From Asterochloris sp. CNOR1 (taxonomy: Eukaryota; Chlorophyta; Trebouxiophyceae; Trebouxiales; Trebouxiaceae), in the NCBI GenBank assembly GCA_963969365.1, contig OZ017747.1:310001-374000 (forward strand): DNA of 64,000 bases. The letters run 5' to 3'. The notes beneath the pieces are model-generated. The model ran no database searches. It saw nothing but the letters and a program-made list of their open reading frames with translations, and had not been told where the DNA came from. The position numbers and the translations under genes are program-made. Position 1 is the first letter of the stretch. Each line of letters opens with the position of its first letter. This document shows positions 17,709 through 62,018 of the stretch, piece after piece.

Positions 17709-20373
17709 TGAGGTGCAGCTGAGCTCCTCCCTCTCTGAGCCCAGCCCAGCCCGTTTGCTGGAGAGGCTAGCAGGAGCATTGAGCCTCCAGCTGCTTTGCT
17801 GGTGCATGCTGGTCCTGGCTGCTGGAGCACTGCAACCTGCCGGCAACAAGGCTGAGTGCCCTGTCATGCTCTGGCCTGGCACCAGTGCAGCCGTGCAAGC
17901 GTATCCCATTGTTGCTGCAGGTAGCAGCCTGACATCATTCCCCCCTGCGTGTGCGTCAGCAGTGGAAAGCCTCCTCGAGCTGCGGGCGCAGAATCTGGAG
18001 GTTGCTATCCACGGTCAGGTGAGGCCCCTCTGGCCACCTGTCAGACTTTGTTTGCAGGGGTTAGTGCTCCAATCGTGCAGCCTAGCCAGATGTGGCCTCC
18101 TTCTGTCACATTGCACGACTGGCAGCTGCTGCACAAGCAATGTCTGCAGCCAAGCTGTTCAGGCTGTGTTGCCTGCATGTCTGCACTCTAAGACTGTGCC
18201 ACATTTCCTCGCGCTGGGTCCTGGCAATCTTCCAAAAGCTGTTCTGGCTTGCATTGGGCTCTGCCTGCAGCTCAGGGCGCAGCTGAACATGGTGGCCACC
18301 CCCTCAATTTCAGCAGTGTGCCGCCTGCGTGTCCCCCGCTCCTTGCACTGAAGCGCTGGTGCTCTTATTGAGGCACTGAACTAAGCAATCATCACCCAAT
18401 TTGCTTCTAAAAGCTTTGAGAGTGTGCAGACTTGTTCGCTAGCAACCCTCTTGCATCCCATATCCACAGTCCACCCACAGTCAGTTTAAGACATACCTTT
18501 GCACATTGATCGGCCATCAAGCGGGCCTCTTGTGTTGCAGGCTGGCCAGTCGCAAACAGGCAAAGCTTGCTGCCCCATCACTCTCAGCTGGGCAGCAAGG
18601 GCCCAGCCGTCAGTCAGAGCTAGCAGGGTCAGGGACTCCAGAGCCACCCCTTCAGCCTCCGCTGGGCAACAGAGGAGCAGGGGCCGCTGGCTCTGGACGT
18701 GCTGCCTGAGGCAGTGGACTCCACGTCACCCAGCGCTGCCAGGGCAGCCTTCCCGTTGAGCCCGTCGCGGCATTCAAGGGGTCTGGATGAGTCGCTTCAG
18801 GCCCACCAGCTTGCTGAGGAAGGCTTGACACTGGGACGCAGCGATGAGCAGGCTGAAGCTGAGACTCAGCCCTGTGCCGGCCAGTTAGCTGGGGAGTCTT
18901 AGGTAAAGCAGGCCCAGAAAGCAGGAGGCGGCATGGCAGCAGCTCTCCTGCCAGCAGCAGAAGGCTGCTCAGTGAGCAGCACGGATGCCGTAACAAGTCT
19001 TGTGGAGGGCACGAGCTTGCAGCGGCAAGCTGACCCGTTCAGCAGAAGCATCAAGCCATGTTAAACAGGCAGTCTGTGGAGCTTGGGGGCCTGGATGCAG
19101 CTCAGCAGGCGCTGCAGCCGCCTCAGCACCCTGGATGCTTCACCAAGGCTGGTGGTGGCAGTGGTGCAGCTGGCACCCTTCAGGGAGTTACTTGAAATAA
19201 ATGCAGGATGGCTGGAGGAAGGCGACACTCAGTCAAGCCAACGGCCTATGGTCTGATTGCTCATTTCAAGTGTTGCACTGAACTGGGTGAGCCCACATCT
19301 GCAGATGTGGACGAACATTCTCTCAGCCATTCAGCTGCACCACAAACAAAATTGCAACTGCAGTGCATGCATGGCAGAAAGCCGGCATATAAAATACAAC
19401 ACGTCAGACAGCGTTTGCCTCTCAGTAGCCACCACAGCAATCAACAGGTGAAGTCCATTGTCAGCAGGGTGCAAAAGGTGCTGGTGTGCATGGTGACCTT
19501 CGAGCATGCAGGGCAGTCTTAGTTGTGATGCAGGTTGGACTTGCAGTCTGGCCAAGCTCAGCTTGTCTAAACTGATTGTTCAAGCTGCAGAACTGCCTGA
19601 TGGCTGCTTCAGATGTTTCAGAATGTGTGTGTGGGGGTGTGTGTGTATGCGAGTATAAAGTATTTGATTTAGCTGCTCCTCATCATTGATCAGATCATTT
19701 GAAAAGAAGGGAAAGAGAACTGCCTGCGTTTGCTTCTCTACGCAGCAGTGCCTTCCTACTGCTGACATGCCGACAGCACACGACACGCAAACGGGGCTTA
19801 AGTGATTGTGAAAAGCTGGCCTTAAGCCAACGTACCTCTACGCTGAGGTACTTCTGCGCAGCTTGAGGCATTACGCAAGGTGCGGAACGCGCATGCAGTA
19901 CAGGAAGCCTGCCTCACAGCTTAAGGTAGAGCTGGTCAACTGTCACCTATACAAGGAGTGGCAGCAAGGGAATCATGCAGGGGATTCTAGAAAGTAAAGC
20001 AGGGCCCATTGCTGGTCTGCCATAGTTATTTGGGGGCAAGCATTGCTGTGACGCTGCAGACAGGCACTCAAAAGGTTTGCTTTGCGTATTTCTCGAGGTC
20101 TGTGCAATGCTGCTCAGCACCAACACATGCAGACCGTGATACAACACTCACTGCGCTTGGTGGCTATGGCCTCAGTAATGTCTTGGTGCTGCTTGGGAAC
20201 TGCTTGAGCAGTACTTCACCTGCAGGGCTGTTCATGCCAGTTTCAGTCCTGGATTATGGCCGATGGGGGGCATGATGTGAGCCAGATGAAGGGGCCACTT
20301 GTGGCTGTTGCCTTTTGCCTGCACATATGCCACTGCTGAAAGCTTGTGACTCTGTCGCAGTCTCACCTTGCAG
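17709..20373. other. Low-confidence exons, then gene-poor spacer
   Basis: To about 18900 there are plus-strand open pieces possibly belonging to the kinesin-like gene. A small piece at 18970-19060 (SSTDAVTSLVEGTSLQRQA) may be coding. From 19200 to 20370 I see no supported gene, only the GT-rich tract at 19625-19652 and the dispersed repeat at 19.5 kb. Confidence 0.4.
19501..19780 (+). repeat. Dispersed repeat copy 1, before array round 1
   Basis: Shares with 41811-42040 the ordered blocks agcatgcaggcagtct, ttgtgatgca, gatggctgcttcagat, tgctcctcatcat and agaagggaaagaga. The two copies are diverged, and the GT-rich tract (19625-19652) is only in this one. Confidence 0.65.
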
Positions 20374-23300
20374 CCTGCCATGGTGCTAATGATGCCCATA
20401 AACCATCTGTTCTGCTGGAGGCTGAAACTGTGAACAACAGATATCGTGCTGGTGTTCCGGCCGCCACCACTCTCAGTTTGTGGATGCCAGAGATGATGCA
20501 GACAAATCCAGAAGTTGACATGATTGCTGAAGAGGTAAGCGCAAACACCAATGCAGTGCAACATGGAGACCACAAGTGAGTCAACACTGTCCTGAAGTCA
20601 GAGGTGGGATGGCTGTTACATGCTACCATCTGGACTGTCCATTTGTGCGGCGTGCAAGTTTTACAACACTGAAGGTTGTGCATGCCTATTTTGGACAACA
20701 GCAGTCGCTTGCTGGTGACCATTGTCGACGACAAGCTCACTATGCAGGCAGAGGTGGGAGGGCAAGGCAACAGCCTCGGACCTAAGTTGGGCCCCAGCCT
20801 TGCTGACAAAATCAAAACAGGTCGAGCCAAATAGTGTCAGTGCTGATTTGCGTAATCAGGTCCCAGCCCGCACAGTGTCCATTTGAGCAGATTGGCAACG
20901 TCAATCCTTGAATCATAGTTTGCTTTGTTTGATCCTTCAGCTTGCCCGTCTGTTGTGCAGGCAAGACTCATCTCCGGGAGGCAGCCTACTGGTCGGTCTT
21001 GTACTTCCTAGCATCTTGCCCCCACCATGGAGAAAATCCTTCTGCTGGATTGGATGTGGAGACAGCAGTGGAGGTTGACCTGCGCCTGCTCTTGATAGCC
21101 ATCAACATGTTTCGGTGGCAGCGCTTTAAAGCTGGTGAGTTGCATGTGTATTTGCATGCAGCTTAATGCCATTGAGGGTCTGAAGTTGCCTAACATGACT
21201 TGCACCCCGATCTCACAAAAGCATGGGCTAACAATTTAATGCACAGTTGCACATGGCTGTCCAGCACCATTGCTTATGGTTTTATTCAGTATGACGTGCT
21301 GATTGCAGGCTGCAAGGAACCAGAGTTTTCCCGCATGTCGAGAGCAGATATGCCTGACTTAGGGCAAATCGACTTAGCCGCGCTGCGCCATGCAGTCGGG
21401 GAGTGGGGATTCCAGAAACCTGAACCGTGTCCTAGTGTCCATATGAACAACAACCCTCTGCTACACAAACTGCTCAACCCCACTCCAAACTCACGCAGCC
21501 GCGCACCAGACTCAACTTCTCCTCCACCAGTGACGACCATGCCAGGCGCTGTTGTGAACCTTGGCAATGGGTGGGGCTGGGTTGCACTCCAGCGTACTGA
21601 CCTGGTTGCTGCCTCCTGCAACACCCACAGGGTGATGCCATTGTCTCTGCACCTGCCTTTTGTGTGGCAGGACAAGCGTGCTGCATTCTGCAGAAGTATC
21701 GGCGTGCCAGCAGCAGCATGAGCTTTGGGCCCGTAGCTGGCCAGGCACACTTGAACACTGTTATCCGCGTTGTGCTTCGAGGTGCAGAAGCATCATCTGT
21801 GCTGACTGCTGCCTGTCTCATTGCAGTGGGGCTGGGGCCCTGGCTGACGGCATAGACCGCACAGGCAACGTGGGCTCTGGTGAGCCTTTGACGGCTTCTC
21901 CCTGCTAAATATGCTGCATGTGCAGTCTGAGAGTAGGATTCATTGCCTCTGTTGCAATTGCTGGGCTTGCTGGCCTGCAATAGCTTGGAGATGAGGTGCA
22001 GTGGTTGGTAGCTCAACACCTTCATGCTGCTATCTGTGCTCCCTGAGCAGCAGGCTGCAGGTCTGTGATGCAAGTCTGTTTGGCTGCAGAAAGTGCCACA
22101 AACAATTGCACGGCTGATGCAAACATGGTCAGGAAGCTCAGCAACTTGGACTCCCACTCAATGCAATCCACACCATACTCTGCATGTGTCACACCAAGGC
22201 AATGGGCAGACAGTTGCTGTGATTGCTCGGCAAAGGTAAGCTCTTGAATCTCAACATCACATCTGCAAATTTGTCGTGTTCTGTCTCCATATGCATGTAG
22301 AGTGGATAAGATATTGCCTGGTCACCATATCAGTCTGTGCCCACATTGCATCGTTCCGTGCAGGTTGGAGGGAGGAAGTGGACTGAGAGCCCTGGCGGGG
22401 AGGAATTGACAAAGGCTCTAATATACCTGCGAGGGCTAAGAGTATGGAGGGTGGGTTTTGACAGACGCTGACGGGTATTTTTGGCATGGCAGCCTTTTGC
22501 AGCATTTTGAGCGACCCCCACTTTGTGTGTTGCAGTGCACTCTTGTGAGGTGTGACACGGGGGACCCGGGGGGGGGGGGGGGGGGCAGAAGGGGCACCTG
22601 ACCAGCGTAGACCTGCATCAGGCAGCTGCCTGAGGAGGTGCACCGACTAACATAGTCCCTCTTTTTACAAGCTATTGACTAGGATGTAGGAATGACACTT
22701 CATCCAGCAATGATTGCTCAGGCATCCTTGTCTGGGCGGCAACTCCAAAAAGTGTGTATTGACAACCATCGTGATGGCGCTTTGCCTTCTGCAGGAGCCG
22801 TCTGGGGTTGCAAAGAAGGCAAGGGGTAAAAAGAGAGCGAGGCCTGATGAAGGACCAGCATCTCGCTTGAGGGAGGTATGTGTTCGAACATGCCTGGCTG
22901 CTTTGTCCTCTGTAAGAAGTTAGGGCAGGTGTTTGGGGCCTTGCTGACAGTGAAGGCTTCAGCAGTGCAATGTTTGTCTGTGTTGCGGGGCTGAAAGGGC
23001 AGGGCCAGTGCACCTGGCTTCTGCATATGTTATAGTTCTGGTCCACACAAAGCTTGTGGTTGACCTGCACGTGGACACCTGGAAACAAACCGTCTCTTCA
23101 CAGGCAATGTTTGCTGCTGTCAATAACTTTCTGTCATAATTTTCTGGCTGCAGGAAATTGGTGGACGCACTGAGGGTGGCTTGGCAGCAGAAGTGTCAGC
23201 AAAGCGCCCAGGTTTGTCTGGCAGCAAATGTGTGCTGATCTGCACATCTACTCACTGGGGGTTTTGCTCTCTGTGTCAATCCACAGCTCAGCTGCTACAC

Positions 23301-24795: not shown

Positions 24796-27700
24796 GCCCT
24801 CAACTGCCTCACCCACCGGCAGCAAATGCGCCTGGTATGCCCTACCTTTTCACAAAGTATATCACCCCGGCAACACTGCAGTATGCCTCCAACGTCTGTG
24901 CAAAGCTATCAGGTCGATTTACGTCTGAACAGCTGGCAATGGTGACAGACGCGATGTACACAAGCTCAGGTTGCATGGCCATCTACGTCAGCTCAGGAGT
25001 CACACTGAGCAGGGAGCAGCAGAAGCAAGCCTTTTTGGCAGCACAGGAAGAGGATCCACAGCTCCAGCTCAGATTCACGCATGGAGATGATGTTCATATC
25101 TGGGGCCCAGGGGACCAGTACCAGGTCCTGTCAGCTCCTGGCCGGCCGCAGGCATTGGCTGCAATCATGTTGTCAGAAACCCGCCTCTGCGTTGTGGGTC
25201 AGGGCAAGCTGCCGATGCCTGTTTCCACCGGAGCTGAGCAGCAGCAAAACGATGGACTCAGTGTGCGCGTCTTGCTGCGGGGAACGCATGACACCATTGT
25301 GGCCCCGCTGTACCTGTCTGGCAGCAGCAGTGGCATGTGGCTAGGATTTGCCACCCTGCTGGAGGGTCTGATGGTCCACGCACGGTTCCTTCACGTGCAA
25401 GATGGCAGCTGGTGGTCTCCCCTGACAGACGTATGCATCTATGGGTGGGTCGACAACACCTGTTGGACATTGCGGGACTGGTCATTGATCTGTACCGACC
25501 ACATTTCTGGCAGTAGAGCATCTGGCTTGGGCTGCTGTGTAAAGCCAAAGTGTGCTTGCAGGGACTTGAGGGCAACTGTAGCAGCTGGTGCGTTGCTGCA
25601 TAGCTCAACATCACAAGCTGTGCAATGCGCCGCCAGGTGATACACATGCATGATACACGTGCATATGTATGTGAATCCAAGTTGTTTTGGCTGAGCACAT
25701 GATGTCTAGCTCTGCCTGACTAATCGAAGCCATGCAGTGGCTCACCGTTTCAGTGCATGCAGGTGGTTGCAAAGATGGCTTTTGGAAGCTCTGAATGGCA
25801 CTGCACAGTTGCATGTGCGGGATGGCAGCTGGTGGATTTCTGTGCTGGAGACGTGCACCATTCGGTAAAGTTCCTCCCCCTCTTTTCTTAGATGGGCTGA
25901 AAACCATTTATTGGTGCTCTCATTCGTGTATGCGCAACAAATGCTGCCGGAACGTGGCTGCCGCCTGACCCAATTGGGTGCTCGTGTGCCTACTTTGTAC
26001 GGCATGCACTACAGGTCCTTGACGCTGTGTCTTTGTTCTGCTGAGAACGGTCAACACCAGAGAAACGAGCATTGTCCTGCTTGCAGCCAATGGCGGGAGG
26101 GGTTGCAGGCATCAAAAGCAGCAATAGAGTCACTTGCTGCTGATCAGAAGCCAATGGAATTGCAACAGGTGCCACCCCAGAAAATGAAGCAGTGCACCTA
26201 ACTGTGCACCTGGCTCAAGAGCACAACCTCCAACTGCAGGCCGCTGATGTGACCACCAATAGCAGAGAGGCAGCCGCAGATGCCAATGTGGGGCTTCCTG
26301 CCTCCAGCAGTGCAAAAGCTGCTGACTACAGGAGTGGGTGTCAAACAATACTTGGTCATGTGGTGCCCAGCAATGCCGCATACCAATCACTTCGGCACCC
26401 AGGAAACTTCAGCACATCAACGCAACGTCCCTGTGTTTGGCAGGCATTCACAGTCACCTGTGCCTGCAGGGAGCTCCCAGGAACCCATACGCAAGCCTGC
26501 TCCTGGGAGCTTGCCAGCTGGGACCCTGTCCCGCTTGCACTTTCCTCTGCAACCAAACACCCAAATCGTAAGAGTTCCTGGGCAGGTCTTCAGCAGCTTG
26601 CCCGCAGACCAGCCACGTTGTTCACTTGTACAAGACAGCTGCCCTGTGCTTCCACACAGCGTTGCTTTGAAGCTGCCACACCTGAGTGCTACTGCCAGCC
26701 CCTCCTTAAAACCTTCCCAACCTCACTGAAAGCAGGCATAATGCAGGAGGACGACCTGGGGAACGTCGATGCACTGAATGAGCTGAGCGGCCTGGCGTAC
26801 TACGATGCACTGGAGGACTTGGGGGATGCGTATGAGAGCTACCAAGAGTCTGAAGAGGATGCGGAAGATCCTGAACAGGTAACTCCTGAACAGGTGGGAG
26901 AGCTGCTGTCTGTTACTCGCTTGCATCCAGTCTGCCAGCTTGGTGGCAAGAGAAGCAGTGCTGGTGGGTGTGCACCGTTTCTTGCTGGCTAGCGGCCTTG
27001 CCGCTTTCCCTGACCCTGCTGGATATCTTCTCAGTGATGCCTGAGCAACTGCTGATGCGTGTGGCGGTGCTGCTTTGTCCTTGGTCGGTGGTCATGTTTA
27101 TGCTGCTCGATTGTGATCTCGATTGATGCCTCTGCCCCTGCCTTGCAGGGCATCATCCGAACAGAGTCAGACGAGCTGTGGCAGCAGCATGCTGGCCCTG
27201 TGCTGGCTTCTCTGGACAGCGCTGGCAGGGAGGCTGTCCTGGCTGTGCTGTTTCAGCTGATGGAGCTGAGTCGCTGCCGCCGAACGATTGAGGGCAAGGG
27301 CTGGTGGGGCGTCACTGCCAAGATAGTTGCATGGATCTACTGCAGCAGGGTGCGAGGAAAGATTGCCAGCAAAGCGACAGTAGAGGAGGTGAGCGCAGCC
27401 GGGCTTGCTCTTGATCTGCTGCAGCATGAACTTCTGTTGTGCATCCAGCCATGGTCTGAATGGCAAACTGCACCTCTCCAGCTGCTGCTGCAAGTGCTGT
27501 AGTGACGAACTGAGAGGCAGCCAGCCAGTGTCTGCATGGCAGCTTCCAAGTAAGGTTCAGCCTGTTTCCTTGGGCCTGAGGGCATCAAAAACAGAGAGTC
27601 ACAGCCAACTACAGCATCTCTCTGATTCAGGCGAGGGACGCCCGGCCCCGGGCTGACTGGTATCTCTTTGGCAGCGCTGAGTGCCAGATCGGCAAGACCT

Positions 27701-30700
27701 TTGCCTGCGTGGTGGGCGCTGTGGCCTGCCAGGAGTGGCACCTCATCTGCATCTGCCTGACCTACACGGCTTCTGTCCACGTCAAAGACCTGAGGGACAA
27801 GATGACCTCCTACCTGCGGGTGCCAACCATGACAGTGGACCCCACAGGCAACACCGTGTATTCCGACAACTTGACGTGAGTGAGTTGGCATGCCCATAAT
27901 CTGCACATCAGCTGTGTGCAGACCAGGGGTGCGTTACTAACCTTCTGCTGGACTTTGGGGCCACCAGAGGCAGTGCATTCGCACCAGGCCGCCTTGTTAA
28001 CATACAGATCTGGGTGGTCCACTGCGCATGCTCGCCAGCCGCTGATACGGTGCTCACAAGCTGCTGATGCGGCTGCTCGCAGGTACCGCATCCGTGCCTT
28101 CTCAGACGTGCATGGCCAGTACACCAAGCGTTGGCTGGATCTGTGGGACCATCGCGAGAAGTACTGCTGGGTGGTGTCCTGGAACTCAGCACACCAGCTG
28201 GACACACTCGCGCTGCTGCGCCTCAAGATGGGCATGCACCACCAACACCACAGTGTCAAGGCAGGCTGCAGTGCTTCTCAGCAAGTCAAGCATTTTTGCA
28301 GGGGCCCAGGTGCATGCACAAACAGCTCAGACTGTCTGCTGCATCATTGCACCCACATACTCCACATATATCACCTGACCTGTACTCGGTGTGGTGCAGG
28401 CCCGACCCATCTTCTTTTTGGACGAGTGGGACCACACCTTCACAGCTAACCCGGTGCAGATTGCACAAAAGCGTGAAGCTGTGCTGGGCATTGGCTCCTT
28501 CCAGCCCATGAGCTCAGCGAAATTTCGGGTGCGGCTGCCGAGTCTGTACTGCAGTCTATTCTCCAGCATTCTGTGTATGTCATCGGAGCAAGGCATCCAA
28601 CAAGCTGTTTCTACCTTGCATCTCTGCTGGCAGCTGGGACAGCCTGCCATGCGCTGCAATCAAAGTGATTCTTGTGCTGGAAGATGTCATTTGTAACAAA
28701 AGATTATCCCTGCCCCTTGTGCAGACCATCATTGGCAACTCTGATGGAGGTGGATCATTTCGGGTCATGGAAGGCCTGTGCAATGTTGTGACAACCTCGA
28801 CGCCCGCAGGCCTGCTGCATGTGCTGCATCGGCGCCGCAGTTGGCTGTCAGGTTGGGCCTGGCCACCCCGAAGTTCAGGCGACATGAGCCTTGAGGATTG
28901 CCGCCCCTTCATCTTCAAGGACGATGACGTGAAAGCAGACAACTGCTTCATGAGTGAGCTGCTGCGTTGGGGAAGCCTGGCTTGTGCTGCATTGTCTCAT
29001 GCTCCCTGTGCCAAAGTTGCACCTCTTGTTGCCATGCCTCCATGGAGCTTGGTTGCCTGCACATGGCATGCAGCCTTTCTTTTGCGAGTGCAGGGGTTAG
29101 CTTTTGCATTGCCTGGTCGCTGTGCTTCACTGATATCCCTGCTTGCAGGTGACATATTCCTGGAGAAGGCCGTTGAGCACAGCCTCAAGCGTACATGCAA
29201 TCAGATTGGCAGCATGGGCAACACCAAGGTAGCAGACTGGGTGGAGGGCAGCATTCACCAGCAATTCTACAAGATCAGAGATGTGGTCCGGGTCGCGGGT
29301 GGCGAGATCCATGGTTGCATCTTCAGGGGCGCTGGCCATCGCTACATCCCCTGCGACCCTGACAAGCCTGAACTGGTGGGTGGCAGCCTCCCTTGTGCGG
29401 GTGCCAATAGCTTCAGTTGCATGTTGACGCTTGGCTTTACGCCTGCGTTGTTATTGCGCTGCAACTGCTTGTCCACAAGCTGTACATGGCATAGATGGGC
29501 AAATCTGGATTAGTCAAGGTGTGCTGAGCCCACATAACATGGCCTCTTTGGGGATGAATAGCACCCGAGAATGTCTCATTGCATGTGACATGGGCACAAA
29601 GTGCTTGCTTGTGCTGTGTCAACTACTGCTGACCACTGCTGCTGCCTCTTCTGTGCAGAACCTGAGTTGCCTTTTTGGCATAAAGAATACCTCAGAGGCC
29701 TTGCAGTGGGTGCGCAATCATGTGGGGGATGCCACTATCTTCTGTGGCGGCACCATGGCAACCAGCCCGCGCGGCTACTGCAACGCTGGCAAGATTGGCT
29801 GCCCAACAACCCTGCTGAACTTTACCATCCCTAAAGGCCGCTCCACTGAGGCAGTCAACCAAGCCTTCATGCACTTCTGCGGTGAGTTGAGCCCTGCTTG
29901 TGCAGCCACTCCTGCTGCAACCTGCAGAGTGCTGCCACATGTGTCAACAGGCCATATTTTGTCCCAGCAACTTTCTGTTTGGTGCTGCCTGCGCATGCAC
30001 TGAGCAACATTGTGCTGCAATAGTGTCTTGCTGCACCAGGCCAATTCATGGCTCCTGTGAGAACAGCTGCATTAGGCGCTGCATGCACTGCAGGTGATGC
30101 ACGAGAGGCCCTGCGCCGCCTGGGGCAGGTAGATGAGCTGAACAGGGAGTTTGTGGACGTCTGTATGACCCAGCAGGACCTGGATGGCTGCCTGGCAACT
30201 GCAACCTGGCTGCGCACCTCTTATCAGTTGCTGGGGGGCGACTCAATGGTGGGCCCAACTTCCCTGGAGCCAATTTTCTCCACCAAGCAAAAGGAGAGCG
30301 AGGACTTCCTCAAGAATCCTGCCTGGGACAGGTGGGTTGACTTGTATCCAGGGGTAGAGCCGCTCTGTTGCAAGCGTCAGCAACCCTGCGTCTGCCTCTG
30401 TTGCACATAAGTTCTGCACATACTTTCTGCACATCCCTGCCATCAATGCAGGCTGAAACCAGGTAGCGGGCACACTAAGTGCATTGCCGTGCCTGCAGGT
30501 TGACGCCAGCTAAGCTCTGCTTCCCAATCAGGCAGCAGGAGTTGCCAGCTGCTGCTGCTGTGACGGCATCGCTTGCGCCGTTGACTGACCAGGATGGCAG
30601 CTGGGAGCTTGCTCGCAAGGACCAGCTGATGTGTGTGCTCTGGATCATCAAGGGTGCTTCCAAGACGGATGAGGAGGGGCTGCCGTTGTTGCCGCGCCAG

Positions 30701-32951: not shown

Positions 32952-33657
32952 TCAGTGGCCGAACAGACTGGCCAGCAGCTGCAGGATACGGCGCCCGCCG
33001 CTGCCTGCCAGGTATATGGCGTCAAACATCATGACTGCGCAGGCCCCCACGATGCATAGCGTGATGGCAATGAGAGCTTGCGTGGCTGCCTGACGCTCAG
33101 CAGCTGCCCTGCGAGCTGCCTCAGCAGCTGAGACAGCCAGGCGCTGTTCGCCTTCAGCAGCCGCCTGCTCACGCTGCTCTGCAGCCAGGAGCCTGTCATC
33201 TGCAGCCCTGGCACGCTTGTCCATGTCTGCTTGCAGGCTGTCGGCCTGCCTGCCCAGGTCCTGCAACACAGCATGTTGCATGGCAGTTACAAAGCGCTCC
33301 ACTGGAGCACAACAACTAGTGCTAGCCTCCCATCACCTGCTCCCACTTTTTGAGCTTGGTCTCCTGCTTGTGCAGGGCCTTGCACTTGCTCCACACGCCA
33401 CGCTCGGCTGGACTCAGCGTAAAGCTGGTGTCCACCGTCTGTTGGTCGGCTTGCATGGCTGCGCTGGAGATGACCAGAGGAGGAATGCTACTGTGGTGGC
33501 GGCCTGCTGGAGGGTTGCCTGGCGCAGCTGACGTCCCTTGAGAGGACTCAAAAGGGGTGTCTGTGCCAAAGCAGGCTTGTGTATGAGTGCGGCACAGTCC
33601 CTGGCGGTGCGCAGGCTCTGGGCAGTCTTGATCTTGCCACAGGCAGCTCGTGTGCAT
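32952..33657 (-). CDS. Gene C1: coiled-coil protein with C-terminal membrane anchor
   Basis: Two exons, 33657-33337 and 33260-32952, joined in phase 0 (CAG/gtgatg...gttgcag/GAC), giving 209 residues. The N-terminus has a Cys/His cluster (CPEPAHRQGLCRTHTQACFG) that resembles small plant-type zinc-binding motifs ending in GLC..H. A polar stretch with TLSPAERGVWSKCKAL follows, then a long charged helix rich in Ala, Arg, Glu and Gln (RLLAAEQREQAAAEGEQRLA...), then one hydrophobic segment near the end (ALIAITLCIVGACAVMMFDA) and a short tail (GGRRILQLLASLFGH). This layout fits a tail-anchored or single-pass protein with a cytosolic coiled coil. It lies head to head with Short2, with 417 bases between start codons, and a near copy sits in the same place beside Short4, which suggests shared control. 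Function unknown. Confidence 0.75.
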
Positions 33658-48183: not shown

Positions 48184-51100
48184 GAAGTTGTTGCAGATCT
48201 TGACAAGTTCTGGATGGATGTGTTAAGTGGCACAGAGCTGTCAGACACCCCTGCTGGCAGCCTTGGTTCTTTCTTGGCTGCTCAGACACAGCAGGGCGCT
48301 GCAGACACATCTGCACACCGAGCCACAGGTCAGAGCCCCGCAGCACCTGTCTGCATGCCTTGGCCTTTCAGCTTGTTGACAGATCTTAATGACCGCAATG
48401 CTGTCTACCGGCGTGATTTGACATGCTGATGATGCGATAGTTGCTGCAGGCCCGCCACTGGGCCTCCCATGTGCTGGTGACCAGCAGAAGCATCTGTTTC
48501 CTGTGGCTAAATTGTCTGGGGAGCGGCCTGAGGATGCCACTATGGTTGGTGATATGTTCAACCTGAAGTCACCGTCCGCAGCACGTGGCTGTGTGGCATT
48601 GTATGACAGCGTGAAGGCCAGTTTCTCACGGGAGCAGCAGCGCACAGCTTTTGTGGAGGCTCGACGGCGCACAAACAACCCACAGCTACAGCTCAGCTTC
48701 ACAGAGGGAGACACGCTCGTTATCTGGGGGCCTGGGGATGAGCCTGAGGTCTTGCCAGGGCCTCGTCCAGAGGCTCTGGCTGCCATCAAGATGTCTGACC
48801 GCCGCCTGTGCATTGTGGGACGCGGCAAGCAGCCGCCAGCAGCTGCAGCCAGCCTCTGGGAGAAGGACCCCCATAGCACCATAACAGTCAGGGTGCTGCT
48901 GGAAGGGACGCACGACACCTTGTTGGCGCCTCTGCACCTGTGCGCCGGCAGCGGCGGCCTCTGGCTGGCAGTTGCCAACCTGTCAGAACCTGTAGACGGC
49001 ACTGCACGCCTGCATGTGCAGGACGGGCGCTGGTGGAGTTCCCTCATGGAGACATGCAGCTTCAGGTAAGCTGCCTTCCTCTTTTGCCATGTAATGCTGC
49101 TGGTGCTTTCAATCATGCCTGCACGTGCTCACGTGCCTGCTTTGTATGGAACACAGGGACCTGAAGGAAGCCCTCTGTACTGGGCCGCTGCTGCAGAGCT
49201 CTTCAATAAAAAGAAGTGTCCAGGGTGCTGCTTGGTGAGAGCCATCTGCCTGGTCTGCCCTGTCTGAACGCACCACAGGTCCTTGTCACAAAATCTTGCT
49301 CTGCTTGAAGTGGTCAATACCTGAGGGACACACATTGCCCTGCTTGCAGCTGCTTGCGGGAGTGGCTGCGATCATCAAACGCACTAGAACTAGCGTTTGT
49401 TGCTGGTTGGAGGCCAATGGGTCTGCGACAGGTGCGACCCTCAACCATGAAGCAGTGCCCTCATCCCTTTCGCCTGGCTCACAAGCACCATCGCCCATTG
49501 CAGGACAATAGTGTGGCGGGCAGTAGTACAGGGGCAGTCGTAGATGCTGGCCTTCCTGTCTCCAGCAGTGACACAGCAGATATCTGTGGCACCAGCAGTG
49601 CACCCCTCAACAACCTCCAAAGTGGGTCAAAGATCATGCTCAAGTGGTGCCGCTGCCCATCACTGCTTGTTTCATGCACCCAGCAGACTCTGGCATACCA
49701 ACACAATGTGCCCTGTGTTGGGAAGGCAGCAACAGCCACCTTTGCTTGCAGGGAGCTCGCAGGAGGCTGCGCACAGGCCTGCTCCAAAGAATTTGCCAGC
49801 TGGGACCCTGTCTGGCAGTGGCCCTCAAGGGGCAGAGAGCAAACCTCCTGAGAGAGCATCCTCATCCCTGCCAGTGAGTGTATGAATTGTCAAGTGTGCC
49901 ACACCTTGGGCTTGCCAATGTACTGACTTACCTGTGTACATCTGGGAAGGCATTGTAGCCTTGTGGCAATCCCTGCTGCAGTGCCTTGCCTGCTCATCAG
50001 CCTCCCGTCAAAATTGTATCATTGACGTGTTCCTTTGAAGCCATCTTTCAGAGTTTGTTTGGCACTGGTGATGATCATCATCGTTCTCAAGGCTGCTTTT
50101 GACCCGTGTCATCAAGGGCCTCATGGTTATTATCATCATCAGCCAGGCCTCATTCAGCAAATCAACTCTGCCTGCTCCCCACTTTCCCCTTCCCCACCAC
50201 ACTAACAAATGCCACCGGTGCCAGCCATCCTAAGCAACATGGACTCAGGTGAGGAGGTCATCAGCCCCACCCTGTCTGCACCTCAAGGCTTCCTTTGCAA
50301 CCAAAATCTGGGAAACTTCTTGCGCAAGCCTTCAACAGCTTGGTCTTGCCTGCAGACCAGCCGCTTTGTTCTCTTGCTCAAGACAGGTGCCCCCTCCTTC
50401 CCCACACACACCTTGCATTTCCACTGTCACGTTCGGATGGTAATGCCAGCCCCCTCCTCACAGCCTCCCCAACCTCCCTGCAGGCTGAGAAGCAGATACC
50501 TGTGCAGAAGGATGACCTGGTGCACGATGATGCCATGGACGATCTGGGCGATAGGTATGAGAGCTACCCAGAATGCGAGAAGGATGCAGCAGCCCCTGAA
50601 CAGGTGAGTGTGGGCGGAGACCTGCTGCCTGTTGCCTGCTTGGTTGAAGGCCATTAGCCCGGCGGCAAGAGAAGCAGCGCTAGTGGGTGCACAACCTGTT
50701 CTGCTGACTGCCGCCCTTGATGCTTTCTCGGCCTTTGCTAGACACCTTCTCACTGATGCCTGAGCAGTTGCGGATGCGTGGGCGGTGCTGCTTTGTCCAT
50801 TTTTGATGGTCATGTTCATGCTGCTGCACTGCATCTTACTAGATGCTGCCTCTGCCTTGCAGGGCATCACCTGCACAGAGTCAGACGAGCTGTGGCAGCA
50901 GCACGCTGGCCCTGTGATGGCTTCTCTGGACAGTGCTGGCGAGAAGGCTGTCCTGGCTGTGCTGTTTCAACTGATGAAACTGAGACGCTGCCGCCTTACA
51001 ATCGAGGGCAAGGGCTGGTGGGGCGTCACTGCCAAGCTGGTTGCATGGATCTACTGCAGCAGGGTGCGAGGAGTGAAAGCCAGCAGTTGCCTCCCCGGGA

Positions 51101-54100
51101 AACGCAAAGCAACAGCAGAGGAGGTGAGCGTCGCCAGGCTCTTGATCTGCTGCAGCAGGTGCTGTCTTGATGCAGCCAGCCATGGTCTGCACGGCTGCTT
51201 TAGTGGGCTTGCTCATCACCTGCTGCAGGAGGTGCCTTGGTGATGCAGCCAGACATGGTTTGCAGCGTACGTGCATCTCTTTGCTGCTGCAGCGGGCGCT
51301 GTTGTGATGGGATGAGTGGCAGTCAGCCATGGTCTGTACGGCAATGTGCGTCTCTCCAGCTACTTCAGCGGGTGCTGTAGAGGTTGGTCGAGAGGCAGCC
51401 AGCCAGGGTCTGCATGGCAGCTTCAAAGTGCAGTGCAGTTCAACCTGCAGCCTGGGGCTTCGAGGCACACCATCTGCCAGATCATCTGCACAAGCACAGC
51501 CAGCCACCACATCTCTCTGGTGCAAGTGCAGGCTGTCCGGCCCCAGGCTGACTGGTATCTCTTCGGCGGCGCTGACTGCCATACGGGCAAGACTTTTGCC
51601 TGCGTGGTGGGCGCCGTGGCCTGCCAGGAGTGGCATCTCATCTGCTTCTGCCTAACCTCCACCTGTCACGTCAAGGACTTGAGGGACGAGATGATTTCCT
51701 ACCTCGGCATGCGGACCTTGGCAGTGGACCCCTCAGACAACACCGTCTATTCAGCCAATATGACGTCAGTGAAATGGCATGCCTACATGCTGCACATGAG
51801 ATTTGTACAGGCCAGGGGTGCGCACAAGACTTCCTGCCAGAGTTTTGGAGTGCAAGAGGCAGCGCACATGCACCAGGCTAGCTAGTCAAAGCAAACTTGT
51901 AGGAGCTCCACTGCGCACGCTCACCAGCTGCTGATGCGGCTGCTCGCAGGTACCGCATCCGTGCCTTCTCAGATGAGAACGGCCACCAATCTAAGTGCTG
52001 GCTGGATTTGTGGGACCGTCTCGAGAAGTACTGCTGGGTGGTGTCCTGGAACTCACCACACCAGCTGGAGACACTAGCGCTGTTGCGCCTTAAGATGGGC
52101 ACGTTCTACAAACACAGTGTTAAGGCACGTCGCAGTGCTTTGCAACAGCTCATGCACTCCTGCCAGAGCCCAGGCCGCAGATGATTCTGCACGTGCATGC
52201 ACAGGCAGCTCACACTGGCTGCTGCAAGAGTGCACTCATATACTTCACACAGACCTCCTGACCTGTGTCAGTGAGGTGCAGGCACGCCCTGTGTTCTTTT
52301 TGGATGGGTGGGGCCAGAGCCCTGCAGCAGCAAAGATGTTGGACATTGAGCGGCAGCGCGATGCTGTGCTGGGCATTGGCCATGGCTACATCCAGGCCAG
52401 CCCGCAGAAGTATGAGGTGTGGCTGCCAAGTCTGTGCTGCAGTGTCCTTCCAGCGTCCTGTGCATGTCGTCAGAGCAAGGTGTTATACGATTGCGTCTCT
52501 GCTGGCAGCTGGGATAGCCAAACATGCAAGGCGTTTTTACTGATGAATTGTCCCCGCTCCTTGTGCAGAACATCATGGGCAGCTCTGCTAGAGCTAGCCG
52601 CCATCATCGCCTCATGGACGGCTTGTGCAACATTGTCACAACATCCACGTCCACAGACGTGCTGTATGCGCTGCATCGGCACGGAAGTCTGCTGTCAGGC
52701 TGGGCCTGGCCTCCACAATTTCCAGGCCACATGAGCATTGAGGATTGCCGTCCCTTCATCTTCAAGGACGAGGACGTCAAAGCAGATTGCTGCTTCATGA
52801 GTAAGCTGCTGTGTTGAGGGAGCCCACATTGTGCTGTGTGGCCTCCTGCTGCCTGTGCCAATGCTGGAGCTTTGCCGCCATGCTTCGTTGGAGGCTTACA
52901 TGCCTGCACATAGCATGCAGCCTTGCGCTGCCGCCCTGCATTTGGCTTCTGCTGTGCCTAGGGCTCATCAACTGGCTGTGCTTCCTTGCTGTCATATGTG
53001 ATACCCCTGCTTGCAGGTGAGGTGTTCCTGGAGAAGGCTGTTGAGCACAGCCTCAATCGCACGTGCAATCAGATTGGCAGTATAGGCAACACCAAGGTGG
53101 CCAAGCGGGTGAAAGGCAGCATTCACCAGCAATTCTGCAAGATCAGAGATGCGGTTTGTGCTGCGGGAGGCGTGATCCATGGCTGCATTTTCAGGGGCAC
53201 CGGCCATCTCTACATACCCTACGACCCTGACATGCCGGAACTGGTGGGTGGCAGCCTCACTTGTGTGGGTGCCAGTGCATCCATCTGCATGATGACGCTT
53301 GGCTCCATGCATGCTGCTCTGCTGCCCTCTAGCCGATTGTTCTCAAGCTGAACCTTGCAGAGAAGGGCAATGCTGCTTTGCCGAGGTGTGCTCCACCTGC
53401 CTCTCATTTCTCATGATTATCCAAGGATGCCCTCATTGCATGTGGCATGGGCGCAAAGTCCCTGCTTTTGGTGTGTCACTGCTGCTACCACTGGCTGCTG
53501 CCTCTCTGGTGCAGAACCTGACCCGCCGCTTTGGCATCAAGAGTCCCACAGAGGCCTTGCAATGGGTGCGCAACCATGTGGGTGATGCCACCATCTTCTG
53601 TGGCGGCACCATGGCAACTAGCCCACGGGGCATATCCTACTGCAGCATGGGCAGATTTTGCTGCCCAACAACCCTGCTCAACATCACCATCCCCAAGGGC
53701 CACTCCACAGAGGCCATCAGTCAAGCCTTCATGATCTTCTGCGGTGAGTTGAGGCTTGCTATGCAGCCTCACCTGTTGCAAGCTGCAGAATGCCCTCCAG
53801 AACTGCCACTGGGGCATGTCGTGTCTCAGCATAACCTCATGTTGGTACCTGCTGCTGCCTCCGCAGATCCTGCTTTGAAAGCACCTGTGTTGCAAGGTGT
53901 CTTGCTGCGCCATGCTGTCTCACGCTTCTTTGCTGTAGCTACAACTGCGTCCTTGCAATGCTCAGTGCCGTGCGCTGCATGCACTGCAGGTGATGCACGC
54001 GGGGCCCTGCGCCGTCTGGGGCAGGTGAATGAGGATGATAGGGAGTATGTAGATGTCTGTGTGACGCAGCAGGACCTGGACGGCTGCTTGAAAAAAGCAG

Positions 54101-56778
54101 CCTGGCTGCGCACCTCGTATCAGTTCCTGAAGGGCGATGCCATGATGGAACCCACTTCCCTGGAGCCACTCTTTGGTGCTAGGTGAGAGGGGAGCTATAT
54201 AAGCAAGAAAGATATTGAGATGGGCAGGAAAGGTGGCTCGTGTCCAGGCGCAGAGCCGCTCTGTTGCAAACGTCAGAAGCTATGCATTCCACCTTTCTTA
54301 CATCCATTCCCTGCACATCTCTACCATCAATGCAGGCTATGATTGATCATACAGCTGGCACACCAGCTGCAGTGCCATGCCTGCAGGACGCCAGCCAAGC
54401 TCTGCTTCCCATTAAGGCAACAGCGATCGCCAGCTGCTGCTGCTGTGACGGGCATCATTGCTCCATTGACGGACCAGGACGGCAGCTGGGAGCTTGCTCA
54501 CAGGGACCAGCTAATGTTTGTGCTCTGGCATGTGGCCAACAAGGTCCATCTTGACACAGATCAGGAGGGGCAGCTGTTGTTGCCGTGCCAGCTTGTGGAG
54601 CAGGAGTGCGACCGGCTGTTCCCAGGTGTGCATGGCTGCATGCAGAGGTGCTTGCTCCTGTGCTGCTTGCAGTCCCCTGCAGCTGCCCCGCATGCTACTG
54701 CTTGTCTTCTGGGTGCCTGTGAGGTCTGCCTCTGTCTCCAACTGGGCAGCACTGTTGACCCTGTCACCTCCAGCACTGTGCCGTGCTCTTCCAGGCCAGC
54801 GCCTTTGCTCATGCAGGCAAGCGCTTGGCGGCTGAACACCATGGCGGAGGGCTGCCGTCGTCGTCGCACCAGGGTGCGCACCCGCTGTCCCCAGGTGTGC
54901 TGGTGCTTACAGTCCCTTAAAGCTGCCCCGCATGCTGCTGCTTGTCTTCTGGATGCCTGTGTGGTCTCCCTCTGTCTGCATCTGGGCAGAGATGCTTACC
55001 CTGTCACCTCCAGCACTCTTCATGCTCTTCCAGATCGTTGCCTTCCACCATGCAGGCGAGCTCTTGAGAGTCAGTTCCTCTGGTGAAGGCACATGGATCC
55101 TGGTGGGGGCGCATGCATTGCATGAGGCCGGCGCAATCAAGCTTGGCGAGCGCCTGCCGGTGCCCAACTCTGGCGGGTGCTGGAAGGTCACTGCTGCCGG
55201 CCAGGCATACATGGAGGAGCATGCCCAGCGTTGGGCTCGGTTCTACAAGAGCATGCAGCCCTGGAAGGACTTCATGCAGCTGGAGGTGCACCACCTGCCT
55301 CCCAGCACATGCAGCCAAGTGCATGCTGTCTGAGCAATGCATCTGCAGCTGCTTCAGGATGGCTACAGCCCCCACGCAGCTGCAAGTGCACTGCTTTTGC
55401 AACAGGCTGTGACAAGCTCCTACGACATGCTGCTGCAAAAGGTTGTGCTACCTGAACCTGCCAACTGATGCCGCAATGGTGCAGGTAAGTGTGCCAGAGC
55501 ATCACGAGGAGAGGAGGAAGGGGAAGGGGAAGGGGAAAAAACAGAAGAAGGTGCATGATGATGAGCTGGACGGCAAGTCGCCTGCAGGGCAGGACTCCAG
55601 CTGCCATACATCGGCAGGAACAGAGGTTGGTGGTGGTGCTGGCAAGACAAGTCAGCTCACAGACGCAGGCGGAAGCGGTCAGGTGGCAGGCAGACCCAGG
55701 GCGCTCATCAGGGCAAAGCTTGAGAAGTTACGGGTCGCCACCAGCCTCAAGTCCCTGGCAGGGTGAGTCTGGTGCATTCTGGGGTCCTGCTTGCGTGGGG
55801 CTTGACAGCGACATCATGTGTCATGCGTCGCATGAATGCTCCACGCCATGCTTCCGGAAGCTTGAAGCTCGGGCCCTCTTGAATATTACTGATTTCACTC
55901 TGCTAATGTAGCGCATGGTGCCACGCAGGGCACTGGCCCTGACCCCTAAGCAAGTGGCTGACAATTCCCGCATCAGGGCGGGAAAGAAGATCGAGATCAC
56001 TACTGCCAATGGTGTCAAGACCCAAAAGACTGTGTACACAGACTTTGCCAGGTGACCTTGTAACATATTCTGCACATGGTGCATGTGTGGCCCTGGCGCA
56101 TCTGTCTAGAAGCTGCCCATGCCAGCAATCTATCACAACATGCTGGCTTGCTGCAGGGACTCTGACGGCAATGTACTGCTGCGGTCTTGGTTGGTGAGCT
56201 AATTTTGTTTGCCCTTCTGTTGCATGGCGTCCTCCCAAGACTCATGTTGGCACCAACAAACACAGCTCTGCTGTGCTGCTTGTGACCAGCTGCCTGTATG
56301 CAGGTCAAATATCCCACACCCGAGGCACCAGGTACGACAGAGGGGCGGCGGAGCTGTTGATGTCATGTGCCTGCAGTACATTCTACAACACTCTTGGCTC
56401 ATGCAGGCAGCCCTGTGTGGTTCCGCATACTAGGGCTGACTGGACAGCACATGCTGCCCTGGGAGCGTGCAGCAGGGAGTGCGGCAGTTGCACCACCCCT
56501 GCAGCAAGAAGACTTGGATACTCGTCTGTTGGGGGAGCTGCAGCATCTTGGTGTGGTGGTACAGATTGTGATCAGGCTTGACCCGTCAGATACAGCCTGG
56601 GTCAAATTTGCTAATATTTGTGCCTCAGCAGAGGTGGGAACATGTCCATCCTGCCTTGCCAAAGCCACTGCTTTTGAACTGCTCAGCCACACAGCCCCTG
56701 ATCATGCAGGCGGACCTCATCATGTTGGGCAACAACAACAACATTCAGATGGAGCGATGCAATGGCCCTCCAGTCTAA
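48184..56778 (+). CDS. Long3: N-terminal domain, altered ATPase core, new C-terminus
   Basis: Paralogue of Long1. Exons: 48184-48328, 48450-49065, 49157-49234, 49350-49431, 49504-49621, 49752-49873, 50484-50603, 50863-51123, 51532-51764, 51950-52124, 52282-52416, 52569-52800, 53017-53243, 53515-53743, 53990-54182, 54387-54625, 54817-54894, 55056-55285, then C-terminal module 55485-55762, 55929-56051, 56157-56193, 56304-56331, 56407-56633, 56710-56778. All phases agree; over 1400 residues without counting the 5' part. N-terminal domain as in Long1 (SREQQRTAFVEARRRTNNPQ, LVIWGPGDEPEVL, HVQDGRWWSSL). Walker A reads ADCHTGKT but Walker B has become FFLDGWG, so ATP hydrolysis is doubtful. The winged-helix end of Short2 is replaced by a Lys/Glu-rich stretch (PEHHEERRKGKGKGKK), TTANGVKTQKTVYTDFAR and VWFRILGLTGQHMLPWE. 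The acceptor at 55929 was chosen because it keeps frame. A leftover of the short-type first exon (MDSGEEVISP, 50239) lies in the intron after 49873. Confidence 0.75.
54626..55095. repeat. Intragenic duplication creating an extra exon in Long3
   Basis: The end of one intron plus the start of the following exon occur twice (54626-54894 and 54895-55095; shared tgccccgcatgctactgctt, cttctgggtgcctgtg, gaccctgtcacctccagcac with few changes). The first copy carries a 78-base exon in phase 1-1 that Long1 and Short2 do not have. Confidence 0.7.
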
Positions 56779-58347: not shown

Positions 58348-59051
58348 TCAGTGGCCGAACAGCCTGGCCAGCAGCTGCAGGATGCGGCGCCCGCCGCTTC
58401 CTGCCAGGTATGTGGCATCAAACACCATGACCGCGCAGGCCCCCACAATGCACAGCGTGATGGCAACGAGAGGTTGCGTGGCTGCCTGACGCTCAGCAGC
58501 TGCCCTGCGAGCTGCCTCAGCGGCTGAGACAGCCAGGCGCTGTTCGCCTTCAGCAGCCGCCTGCTCACGCTGCTCCGCAGCCAGGAGCCTGTCATCTGCA
58601 GCCCTGGCACGCTCGTCCATGTCTGCTTGCAGGCTGTCGGCCTGCCTGCCCAGGTCCTGCAACACAGCATGTTGCATGGCAGTTACAAAGCGCTCCACTG
58701 GAGCACAACAACTAGTGCTAGCCTCCCATCACCTGCTCCCACTTTTTGAGTCTGGTCCTGCTTCTGCAGGGCCTTGCACTTGCTCCACACGCCACGCTCG
58801 GCTGGACTCAGTGCAAAGCTGGTGTCCACCGTCTGTTGGTCGGCTTGCATGGCTGCGCTGGAGATGACCAGAGGAGGAATGCTACTGTGGTGGCGGCCTG
58901 CTGGAGGGTTGCCTGGCGCAGCTGACGTCCCTTGAGAGGACTCAAAAGGGGTGTCTGTGCCAAAGCAGGCTTGTGTATGAGTGCGGCACAGTCCCTGGCG
59001 GTGCGCAGGCTCTGGGCAGTCTTGATCTTGCCGCAGGCAGCTCGTGTGCAT
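58348..59051 (-). pseudogene. Gene C2: near copy of C1, probably frame-broken
   Basis: Almost identical to C1 in both exons (59051 to about 58733, and 58656-58348), including the Cys/His cluster, the Ala/Glu/Arg helix and the hydrophobic end (PLVAITLCIVGACAVMVFDA). Just before the intron, in the stretch equal to C1 33345-33375, this copy is two bases shorter, which puts the second exon out of frame if the same splice sites are used. The rest of both exons stays open and conserved, so the change is recent, or a different splice choice rescues it. It lies head to head with Short4 as C1 does with Short2. Either a new pseudogene or a gene whose exon 2 starts inside. Confidence 0.6.
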
Positions 59052-59646: not shown

Positions 59647-62018
59647 ATGGACTCAGATGAGGAGATCATCAGTCCCGCCCTGCTTGCACCTTCCTCTGCA
59701 ACCAAACCGGTGAGAGCGCCTTGGCAGGCCTTCGGCAGCTTGATCATGCCTGCAGACCAGCCCCATCGTTCTCATGCCCAAGATAGTTGCCCCCTGCTTG
59801 TACACTGCCTCGATCTTTACCTGTCACAACTGAAGATGCCAGCCTCCTCCTCATAGCGCCCCCAACCTCCCTGCAGGCTGCGTGGCATGAGCAGCAGGAG
59901 ACCATGCAGGAGGACGAGCTGGTGTACTACAATGCACTGGAGGAGGTGTGTGTGGTAGGAGAGCTACTGTCTGTTGCTCGCTTGTGTCCAGGCCACCAGC
60001 TTGGTGGCATGAGAAGCAGTGCTGTTGGGTGCGCCCCTATATTTGTTGATTGCCGCCGTTGATGCTTTCCCTGCACTTTCTGGGCGCCTTCTCACTGCTG
60101 TCTGACTACAGCTGTGGCACAAGGCGGCACTGCTCTGTGAAGAGCACCTGGTCAAGTTTGTTCTGGTTGACTGCATCTCACATGATGCCTCTGCCCCTGT
60201 CTTGCAGGGCATCACCCGCACAGAGTCAGACGAGTTGTGGCAGCAGCATGCTGGCGCTGTGCTGGCTTCACTAGACAGCGCTGGCATGGAGGCTCTCCTG
60301 GTTGCGCTGTTTCAGCTTATGGAGCTGATACATGGCCGCCGCATGATTGAGGGCAAGGGCTGGTGGGGCGTCGCCGCCAAGCTGGTAGCATGGATCCGCT
60401 GCAGCAGGGTGCGAGGAATGGAAGCCAGCAACTGCCTCTCAGGGAAACGCAAAGAACCCGCAGAGGAGGTGAGCACAGCCAGACTTGCTCTTGATCTGCT
60501 GCAGCAGGTGCTTTACTTATGCAGCCAGCCATGGTCTGCATGGCAGATTGCTTCTCTCAAGTTGCTGCAAGCTGTAGTGATGGCAGCCAGCCTGTATGCA
60601 TACAGATGGCACCACCAAGGTGCAGTGCTATTCAGCCGCAGCCTTAGGGCGGAGTGGGACATGATTCACCGATTCACAGCCAGTCACATGTGATGCAGGG
60701 CGATGTGCCAGAGCATCAGGAGGAGAGGAGGAAGGGGAAGGCAAAGATGCAGAAGAGGGTGCACGACAATGAGCTGGAGGTTGCAGGGCAGGGAGTAGCC
60801 AGCAAGTTGCTGGCAGGGCAGGACTCAAGCTGCCAGATACCGCCGTGGCCAGAGGCTGATGGTGGTCCCGGCAAGAAAAGTCAGCTGACGGAGTCTGGTG
60901 GGAGCAGTCAGGTGGCGGGCATACAGGCCCATGTCAGAGCTGAGGTTGAGAAGTCAGGAGCCTGCAGCTTTAAGTCAAATTCAGAGTAAGTGTGGTGCAT
61001 CCTGGGGCATTGCAGGGTTGGTGCGAGGGTGCTTGCTTGACAGCAAGATTGCAATATGTCATGCAGTGGCATGAGGCGCCATGCCATGCTTGCAGGGAAA
61101 GGTTGAAGCCCAGCCCTCCTGAACATGACTGCATTCACACTGCATTTACAGCGCAATGATGCAATGCAGTGCTCTGGGCCTCACCGTCAAGCAAGTGCGG
61201 GACTCCTCTCGCGTCTTCAAGACGGAGAAAAGGACTGAGGCCACCACTGCCAATGGCGTCAAGACTCACAGGACTGTGTGCACGGAGTTTGCCAGGTGAC
61301 TATCTGATGATGTGTGCGCTGTGCTTTGCCATGGCATCTGCTACTTGTTTGGAAGCCATACATGCCAGCAACCGCCTTCACAAGGTGCTGGCTTGCTGCA
61401 GGGACTCTGACGGCAATGTGCTGCTGCGCTCTCAGCTGGTGAGCTGTTCTGCTTTGCCCTTCGCTGCATGGCACCCACACGAGACGAAAATGCTGCTGAC
61501 AACCTTAGATGTGCTGCGCTGCTTATGACCAGCTGCCTCTTTGCAGGTCAATTATCCTACATTGGAGGCACCAAGTATGACAAAGGGGCTTTGAGCTGTT
61601 GGGTGATTGTGTGCCTGCCATGCAACCTACAGTCTCTTGGCTCATGCAGGCAACCCTGTGTGGTTTCGCATTCGAGGGCTGACTGGCCAGCACAGGATGC
61701 CTTGGGAGCATGCAGCGGGGAGTGCGGCACGTGCCCCACCCCGGCAGGAAGAAGACTTGGAGACGCGTCTCTTGGGGGAGCTGCACCATTTTGGTGTGGT
61801 GACGCAGATTGTGGTCAGGCTTGACCCGTCAGACACAGCCTGGGTCCAGTTTGTTGATGTTTGTGCCTCAGCAGAGGTGAGAGCCTGTGCATGTTGCCTC
61901 TGTGACATCACTGCTCTTAAACTGCTCAACCAGAAAATCCCTGATGCAGATGGACCTCATCATGTTGGGCAACAACAACAACGTCGAGATAGAGCGATGC
62001 AGTGGCCCTGTAGCTTAA
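59647..62018 (+). CDS. Short4: core-less member, N-terminus joined to C-terminal module
   Basis: Nine exons: 59647-59709, 59877-59945, 60208-60468, 60699-60985, 61152-61295, 61402-61438, 61547-61574, 61650-61876, 61950-62018; 1185 bases, 394 residues, one open frame with every phase agreeing. The first three exons equal Short2 exons 1-3 (MDSDEEIISPALLAPSSATK; HEQQETMQEDELVYYNALEE; the helical SDELWQQHAGAVLASLDSAG domain). The fourth starts the module that ends Long3 (VPEHQEERRKGKAKMQKRV), followed by ATTANGVKTHRTVCTEFAR, DSDGNVLLRSQL, VWFRIRGLTGQHRMPWE, a Leu/Val domain (ETRLLGELHHFGVVTQIVVR) and LIMLGNNNNVEIERC. The whole ATPase region and both winged helices are absent, and the junction is a legal phase-0 intron. 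Most simply a deletion product of a Long3-like gene that still codes, perhaps for a regulator of the ATPase members. Confidence 0.75.

Follow-up and report, generated by a model that had tools for sequence, protein, structure and literature searches.

A reshuffled array of SF2-like ATPase-like genes in Asterochloris shares a terminal module with a GREB1-like gene

We analysed a 64,000-nucleotide stretch of the Asterochloris sp. CNOR1 genome, hereafter called the window (contig C2, positions 310001-374000, in an assembly of 56.4 Mb in 21 contigs), which carries a tandem array of related, intron-rich genes. The array is built around a family of ATPase-like genes (A1 to A4, with a fifth copy, A5, on contig C3), accompanied by small genes on the opposite strand (C1 and C2), by a domain placed ahead of A in two long genes (D) and by a 3'-terminal module (T) also found at the end of a GREB1-like gene on contig C11. 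We propose, with a probability of about 0.55, that these genes are specific to their lineage, recombine with one another and encode active as well as inactive subunits of a nucleic-acid ATPase, in which C1 and A2 would be the intact pair; we infer their cellular role from the sequences. The anatomy of the array, the constraint on its exons, the motif losses and the sharing of modules are direct observations.

Layout of the array

The window (55.9% GC, no N) contains genes rich in introns, with GT-AG and a few GC-AG borders, and is therefore eukaryotic; its host is likely a green alga. The genes follow one another as Long1 (+), C1 (-) and Short2 (+), then Long3 (+), C2 (-) and Short4 (+), and their main parts are as follows.

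24897..26530, + strand: D exons of Long1, comprising the main exon (24897-25442) and those after it; 51% amino acid identity to 48503-49063
27149..31561, + strand: A1 core, 11 modelled exons, winged-helix-like last exon; motif V shortened, H for the motif VI arginine
32955..33456, - strand: C1, 142 amino acids in two exons; looks like a coiled coil by eye, with a single hydrophobic segment (residues 102-122)
34075..39159, + strand: A2 (Short2), 13 exons, sole copy with all five SF2-like motifs, winged-helix-like last exon
48503..49873, + strand: D exons of Long3, from sequence comparison with D of Long1
50485..55285, + strand: A3 core, ten modelled core exons, all open; DGWG for DEWD, TSTP lost, I for the motif VI arginine
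55485..56778, + strand: T of Long3, six exons with the same lengths modulo 3 as in T of Short4
58351..58850, - strand: C2, frames of exons 1 and 2 not in register; 94% similarity to C1 in exon 2
59647..60468, + strand: N-terminal exons of A4 (Short4), not followed by the ATPase exons
60699..62018, + strand: T of Short4, six exons, open; 72.9% DNA identity to C11:2381484-2382987

Self-comparison of the window by blastn revealed three full A cores, at approximately 26.5-31.55 kb (A1), 33.9-39.3 kb (A2) and 50.1-55.4 kb (A3), and a fourth, partial copy at 59.4-60.6 kb (A4). Positions 26788-31552 of A1 align with 34351-39144 of A2 at 77.2% identity, 35038-38533 of A2 with 51372-54850 of A3 at 79.3%, and A1 with A3 at 73.7%. 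The 5' part of A2 matches 59351-60510 (A4) at 76.6-81.8% identity, and the C1 region (31582-33758) matches the C2 region (56959-59155) at 86.9% over 2.2 kb. An assembly duplicate is an unlikely source of the array, because the divergence of most paired blocks is 13-27%, no N occurs in the window and contig C2 is 4.47 Mb long; the similarity of C1 and C2, 96.2% in the coding part and 98.5% on its 5' side, weighs the other way.

SF2-like motifs and coding constraint in the A genes

Splicing A2 by hand gave 13 exons whose borders fit the consensus and whose frame is open. Its product displays motifs in the SF2 order I, II, III, V and VI, namely AECQIGKT, DEWD, TSTP, GGTMATSSRGVS and QAFMRFCG. With a set of SF2 patterns that was chosen after the sequence had been read, from motifs picked by eye, A2 passes, A1 and A3 fail, and none of 200000 shuffled A2 sequences passes; a stricter earlier pattern, in which motif I had to begin with G, was matched by none of A1, A2 and A3. 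All three copies keep motif I as [AG]-x4-GKT. A1 also retains DEWD and TSTP, its alterations being in motifs V and VI, and A3 is altered in motifs II, III and VI, as listed above. Both A1 and A2 end in a winged-helix-like exon rather than in T, with resemblance below cut-off to AbiEi_4 (E-values of 0.010 and 0.013, the latter for A1). Searches of the family libraries with this exon and ten upstream open reading frames returned nothing above cut-off, and those against the PADLOC models of anti-phage defence proteins gave only weak matches, such as PDC-S05 with the C-terminal part of A1 (residues 739-792; E-value 0.0082).

The ten core exons of A2 recur in A1 and A3 with identical borders and equal lengths modulo 3, in agreement with the common exon phases noted in a first-pass annotation of this DNA. 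The A3 model has a nearer splice site at the end of one exon and takes the second copy of another, both choices preserving the frame. A4 is open across its N-terminal exons and the six exons of T. Alignment gaps between copies are all multiples of three in exons (0/7, 0/9 and 0/3 are not), as opposed to 41/47, 32/44 and 33/43 gaps in introns that are not. The pairwise ratio of nonsynonymous to synonymous substitution (dN/dS) between A cores is 0.38-0.44, and in an unconstrained simulation with uniform mutation only 1.6, 0.6 and 0.2% of sequences remained free of stops at 5, 7 and 9% divergence, respectively (500 runs each). In light of the in-frame exon gaps, the dN/dS values and the simulation, the A copies look like coding genes under moderate constraint.

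The same intron starts with GC instead of GT in A1, A2 and A3 (positions 28261, 35785 and 52125), as it does in the modelled A5. Tandem copies of ~71 bases occupy the 3' end of A2 (39071-39313), taking in the end of its last exon.

The C genes

The A and C genes are arranged head to head, with ~0.6 kb between C1 and A2. Residues 104-122 of the 142-residue C1 have a mean Kyte-Doolittle value of 2.34, and this single C-terminal hydrophobic segment is what is expected of a tail anchor; the small partner with a hydrophobic segment proposed in the first-pass annotation is thus borne out. The C query found seven matches in the genome, corresponding to both exons of C1, of C2 and of a third copy, on contig C3, plus a chance-level match on C8. 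C1 and the C3 copy are intact and C2 is frameshifted; dN/dS of exon 2 is 0.25-0.28. Searches of Pfam and PADLOC with C yielded nothing above cut-off, the weak PADLOC matches being LeoC (E-value 0.018) and PglW (E-value 0.03).

The T module and a GREB1-like gene

The T modules that follow A3 (55.48-56.80 kb) and A4 (60.69-62.04 kb) are 74% identical, with a dN/dS of 0.43. In the whole genome, T gave 13 matches, to exons of the two window copies and of the C11 copy, and one at chance level on C9; none was found near A5, and Pfam contained no match to T above cut-off. Similarity between the C11 copy and the Short4 region extends beyond the stop.

The C11 copy lies at the 3' end of a GREB1-like gene (C11:2373496-2382987), the only one detected in the genome, whose GREB1-like part is upstream of T and in the same orientation. 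The cpSF2-GREB1 signature (PF20692) matches C11:2373496-2377254 with 51.8 and 42.9 bits, or 69.5 bits with frame neighbours, for a cut-off of 26.2. From the TAGT region to the first exon of T, the gene could be modelled as eight exons with matching phases and no stop. As read from the sequence, an intron border precedes the first exon of T in all three copies. Because the border of T is an intron, the module probably moved by exon shuffling, and the simplest reading is that T was first part of the GREB1-like gene and that A genes acquired it through introns; a transfer from A to the GREB1-like gene is a less simple possibility.

GREB1 proteins, discussed mostly in animals, combine a circularly permuted SF2 helicase with a TAGT domain. 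The A genes resemble the GREB1-like gene in two respects, the T module that Long3 and Short4 have in common with its 3' end and, by eye, a motif I of the form A-E-x-Q-[IV]-G-K-T in both ATPases, but the A motifs are in the usual, unpermuted order. We considered A as a GREB1 protein and rejected this assignment, since the motif order is unlike that of GREB1 and A does not match PF20692, which at E-values up to 10 finds only C11 in this genome. Conversely, the A profile has no significant match in the C11 gene (best E-value 1.8). According to PMC6163654, the SF2 module of GREB1 is presumed to bind nucleic acids and to be catalytically inactive, and TAGTs are able to glycosylate DNA pyrimidines.

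Putative functions

The A family multiplied locally and was reshuffled, leaving A1 fused in frame to D, A3 behind D and followed by T, and A4 as N-terminal exons joined to T. A2 would be a nucleic-acid-dependent ATPase or translocase, and C1 its divergently transcribed, membrane-tethered partner, with the ~0.6 kb between them as a shared promoter region. A1, A3 and A4 may be catalytically weakened or ATPase-less subunits that act as structural, regulatory or dominant partners, and T would provide a contact that the GREB1-like protein uses as well. The A copies would stay mosaic through gene conversion and unequal exchange. A nuclear role directed at DNA or chromatin seems to us the most likely one, since T is shared with a helicase-glycosyltransferase-like gene and A1 and A2 have winged-helix-like ends; this is the weakest step of the proposal.

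Several points weigh against this proposal. The putative nuclear location and partnership of A with C are deduced from gene position and module sharing. The core of A has no match above cut-off in Pfam, NCBIfam, PHROGs or PADLOC and no significant one in the PDB by sequence or by profile, and neither full-length A2 nor a three-copy alignment found anything among 5.8 billion proteins (7997 and 7994 candidates scored, respectively). The predicted fold of the P-loop exon, taken as a single-exon fragment, has a predicted local distance difference test score of 47.5, too poor for a fold search. On C11, the TAGT match reaches only 17.1 bits in the spliced model (E-value 0.0055) and 13.2 unspliced, for a cut-off of 27.5, and the modelled exons run from the TAGT region to the first exon of T only. 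Finally, A1 and A3 could be decaying slowly.

As no library recognizes the A core, the SF2 label is drawn from its motifs. An exon-sized A query retrieved 5 proteins with 70-98% identity among 11 candidates. In the collections searched, A looks like an orphan, intron-rich family; ours was the only eukaryote genome covered, and A may therefore be common in other green algae.

Pseudoenzyme pairs and gene arrays with fusions are known in general. Like tandem arrays of active and catalytically dead paralogues, this one has one complete copy and siblings that are open but lack motif residues; it differs from them in that its copies also gain or lose whole terminal modules by fusion. The combination of fusion and putative pseudoenzymes in one array, and the link to GREB1, make it a new variation on these themes. 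The array shows plainly how genes can be assembled by duplication in place, by fusion and by the capture of exons, with the different states still present together: one exon is fused, one first exon has been kept internally, and the shared tail has identical exon phases in its two array copies. It also connects a GREB1-like gene of an alga with an unrecognized family of ATPase-like genes. If A2 is a nucleic-acid motor, its open but altered siblings provide a natural test of how pseudo-ATPases arise and are retained.

Copies elsewhere in the genome and alternative origins

The A family has at least 47 exon-level matches in the genome, all of them in the window or at C3:3767964-3772643; such exon-level counts are lower bounds. 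A5 is a short gene without D; as modelled, it changes frame in exon d and meets a stop in exon k, and its last exon is spread over two frames. On C3, a stretch of 11.77 kb with 51.6% GC (C3:3773897-3785665) lies between C and A, immediately 5' to where C starts. Within the 4000 bases of this stretch used as query, pieces match C13, C16, C18 and C3, with 94% identity over 232 bases on C13, and since parts of it have relatives elsewhere in the genome the stretch looks like an insertion. The best direct repeat at its junctions is 6 bases long.

The dispersed C3 copy with its broken frames, the insertion next to it and the orphan status of the ATPase are what a mobile or captured viral element might leave, namely an intron-bearing, selfish or domesticated SF2-like ATPase that spread to C2 and C3 and is decaying; PMC6652019 reports a viral insertion in Asterochloris. 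We nevertheless regard such an origin as unlikely. Only five A loci were found, the genes have approximately ten or more introns each, and the window has no strong GC island (0.51-0.64 in 2 kb steps, the lowest value being 0.513 at 22-24 kb). Searches with two peptide patterns of one exon picked out 16 stretches in viral contigs and 101 in prokaryote contigs, none of which was confirmed, and phages and plasmids contained nothing significant (best E-values of 1 and 3).

It is also rather improbable that the array consists mostly of relics, with C1-A2 as the sole working pair and A1, A3, A4, C2 and A5 as pseudogenes. The frameshift in C2, the frame change and stop in A5 and the motif losses in A1 and A3 agree with such decay, but in the models no exon of A1, A3 or A4 is interrupted, the two T modules are likewise open, and substitution in all of them is constrained.

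History of the array

The first-pass annotation had described two rounds of long gene, C gene and short gene, derived from one ancestral block of about 22 kb by tandem duplication, and a long gene giving rise to a short one. The self-comparison confirms that gene order and strands recur in both rounds, and a diverged repeat does precede each of them. The relevant features on the 5' side of the rounds are listed here.

19470..20174, strand not assigned: diverged 5' flank of round 1, collinear blastn pieces (62-77%) pairing with 41784-42905
20394..20540, + strand: exon-like piece at the Long1 5' side; intron 1 of A5 on C3 holds a similar one (70%, E-value 1.8e-13)
41784..42905, strand not assigned: diverged 5' flank of round 2, collinear blastn pieces

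Three collinear pieces make up the flank repeat: 19470-19543 with 41784-41856 (77%), 19595-19732 with 41867-41998 (62.5%), and 20049-20174 with 42783-42905 (69%). Searching the genome with 711 bases of it returned only the query itself, and it is therefore not a frequent repeat, with the caveat that this search also missed the round-2 copy.

The repetition claimed for the two rounds holds for order, strands and the diverged flank, and fails for the parallel diagonals, which are broken between 20.2-24.9 and 42.9-48.5 kb, approximately from flank to D, where no match was found at an E-value of 0.01. Nothing in Short4 pairs with the 3' part of A2 (35.0-39.3 kb), and nothing in round 1 with T of Long3 and Short4, so the rounds are not clean repeats. 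Duplication of a single block should leave equal synonymous divergence (dS) along the paired parts. We measured values of 1.44 for the D main exon (95% interval 0.98-2.84), 0.40 for the A1-A3 core (0.33-0.46), 0.22 for exon b of A2-A4 (0.11-0.38) and 0.108 for exon 2 of C1-C2 (0.04-0.18). As these are incompatible, one 22 kb duplication is insufficient, and layers of differing age with later homogenization account for the spread.

A single tandem duplication of that block leading to a recognition or defence array is thus already disfavoured, and we hold it to be quite improbable: order, strands and flank repeat are each present twice, but dS spreads more than tenfold, A1 and A3 are not clearly the nearest copies, T is absent from round 1, and the two short genes are short in different ways, Short2 having the full ATPase-like part and a winged-helix-like end, and Short4 lacking the ATPase exons and ending in T. 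Later gene conversion could rescue the block model only in part. Tandem amplification, rapid divergence and ATPase-like motifs, also put forward in the first-pass annotation, are supported.

The relationships among A copies are themselves mixed. At informative sites of the quartet formed by A1, A2, A3 and A5, 55 group A1 with A2 against A3 with A5, 71 group A1 with A3 against A2 with A5, and 79 group A2 with A3 against A1 with A5, each topology being favoured in local stretches. This pattern suggests a star-like or mosaic history. Within one exon, a protein from another public record (P0001) resembles A2 in its upstream residues and A1 in its downstream ones, as expected of exchange.

The D main exon occurs at only two places in the genome, in Long1 and Long3, which share 51% amino acid identity over 179 codons with a dN/dS of 0.30; it has no match in Pfam or PADLOC. 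Two features at the junction of D and A bear on the order of events.

26470..26567, + strand: fused exon of Long1, read by eye, in which D ends and runs on in frame into the 3' half of short-gene exon 1
50063..50484, + strand: remnant of the short-gene 5' flank and exon 1 in Long3 (blastn, 33894-35004 with 50063-51161, 74.8%)

A1 retains only that 3' half, the alignments around the fused exon breaking at 26530/49812 and 26541/50289, and in Long3 the short-gene 5' flank and exon 1 lie between D and the core. Since both long genes carry short-gene 5' remnants and the C3 copy is short, the short form looks ancestral, in the reverse of the order first suggested.

A diversifying recognition system on an SF2-like motor, with inactive copies as sensors, A2 and membrane-anchored C1 as executor and T as an integrated decoy baiting attackers of a GREB1-like chromatin modification, seems to us very unlikely.

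Other features of the window

Rfam and tRNA searches found nothing, and neither did a search of the openly licensed PMC literature for the array locus. Long1 holds a second copy of part of the D main exon (25779-25865), and the phase of this copy is, on inspection by eye, compatible with its being spliced in. A run of 18 G at 22568-22585 is probably within an intron of Long1. A long tandem array, with units of ~140 bases that are 67-83% alike by self-blastn, occupies positions 14038-15800.

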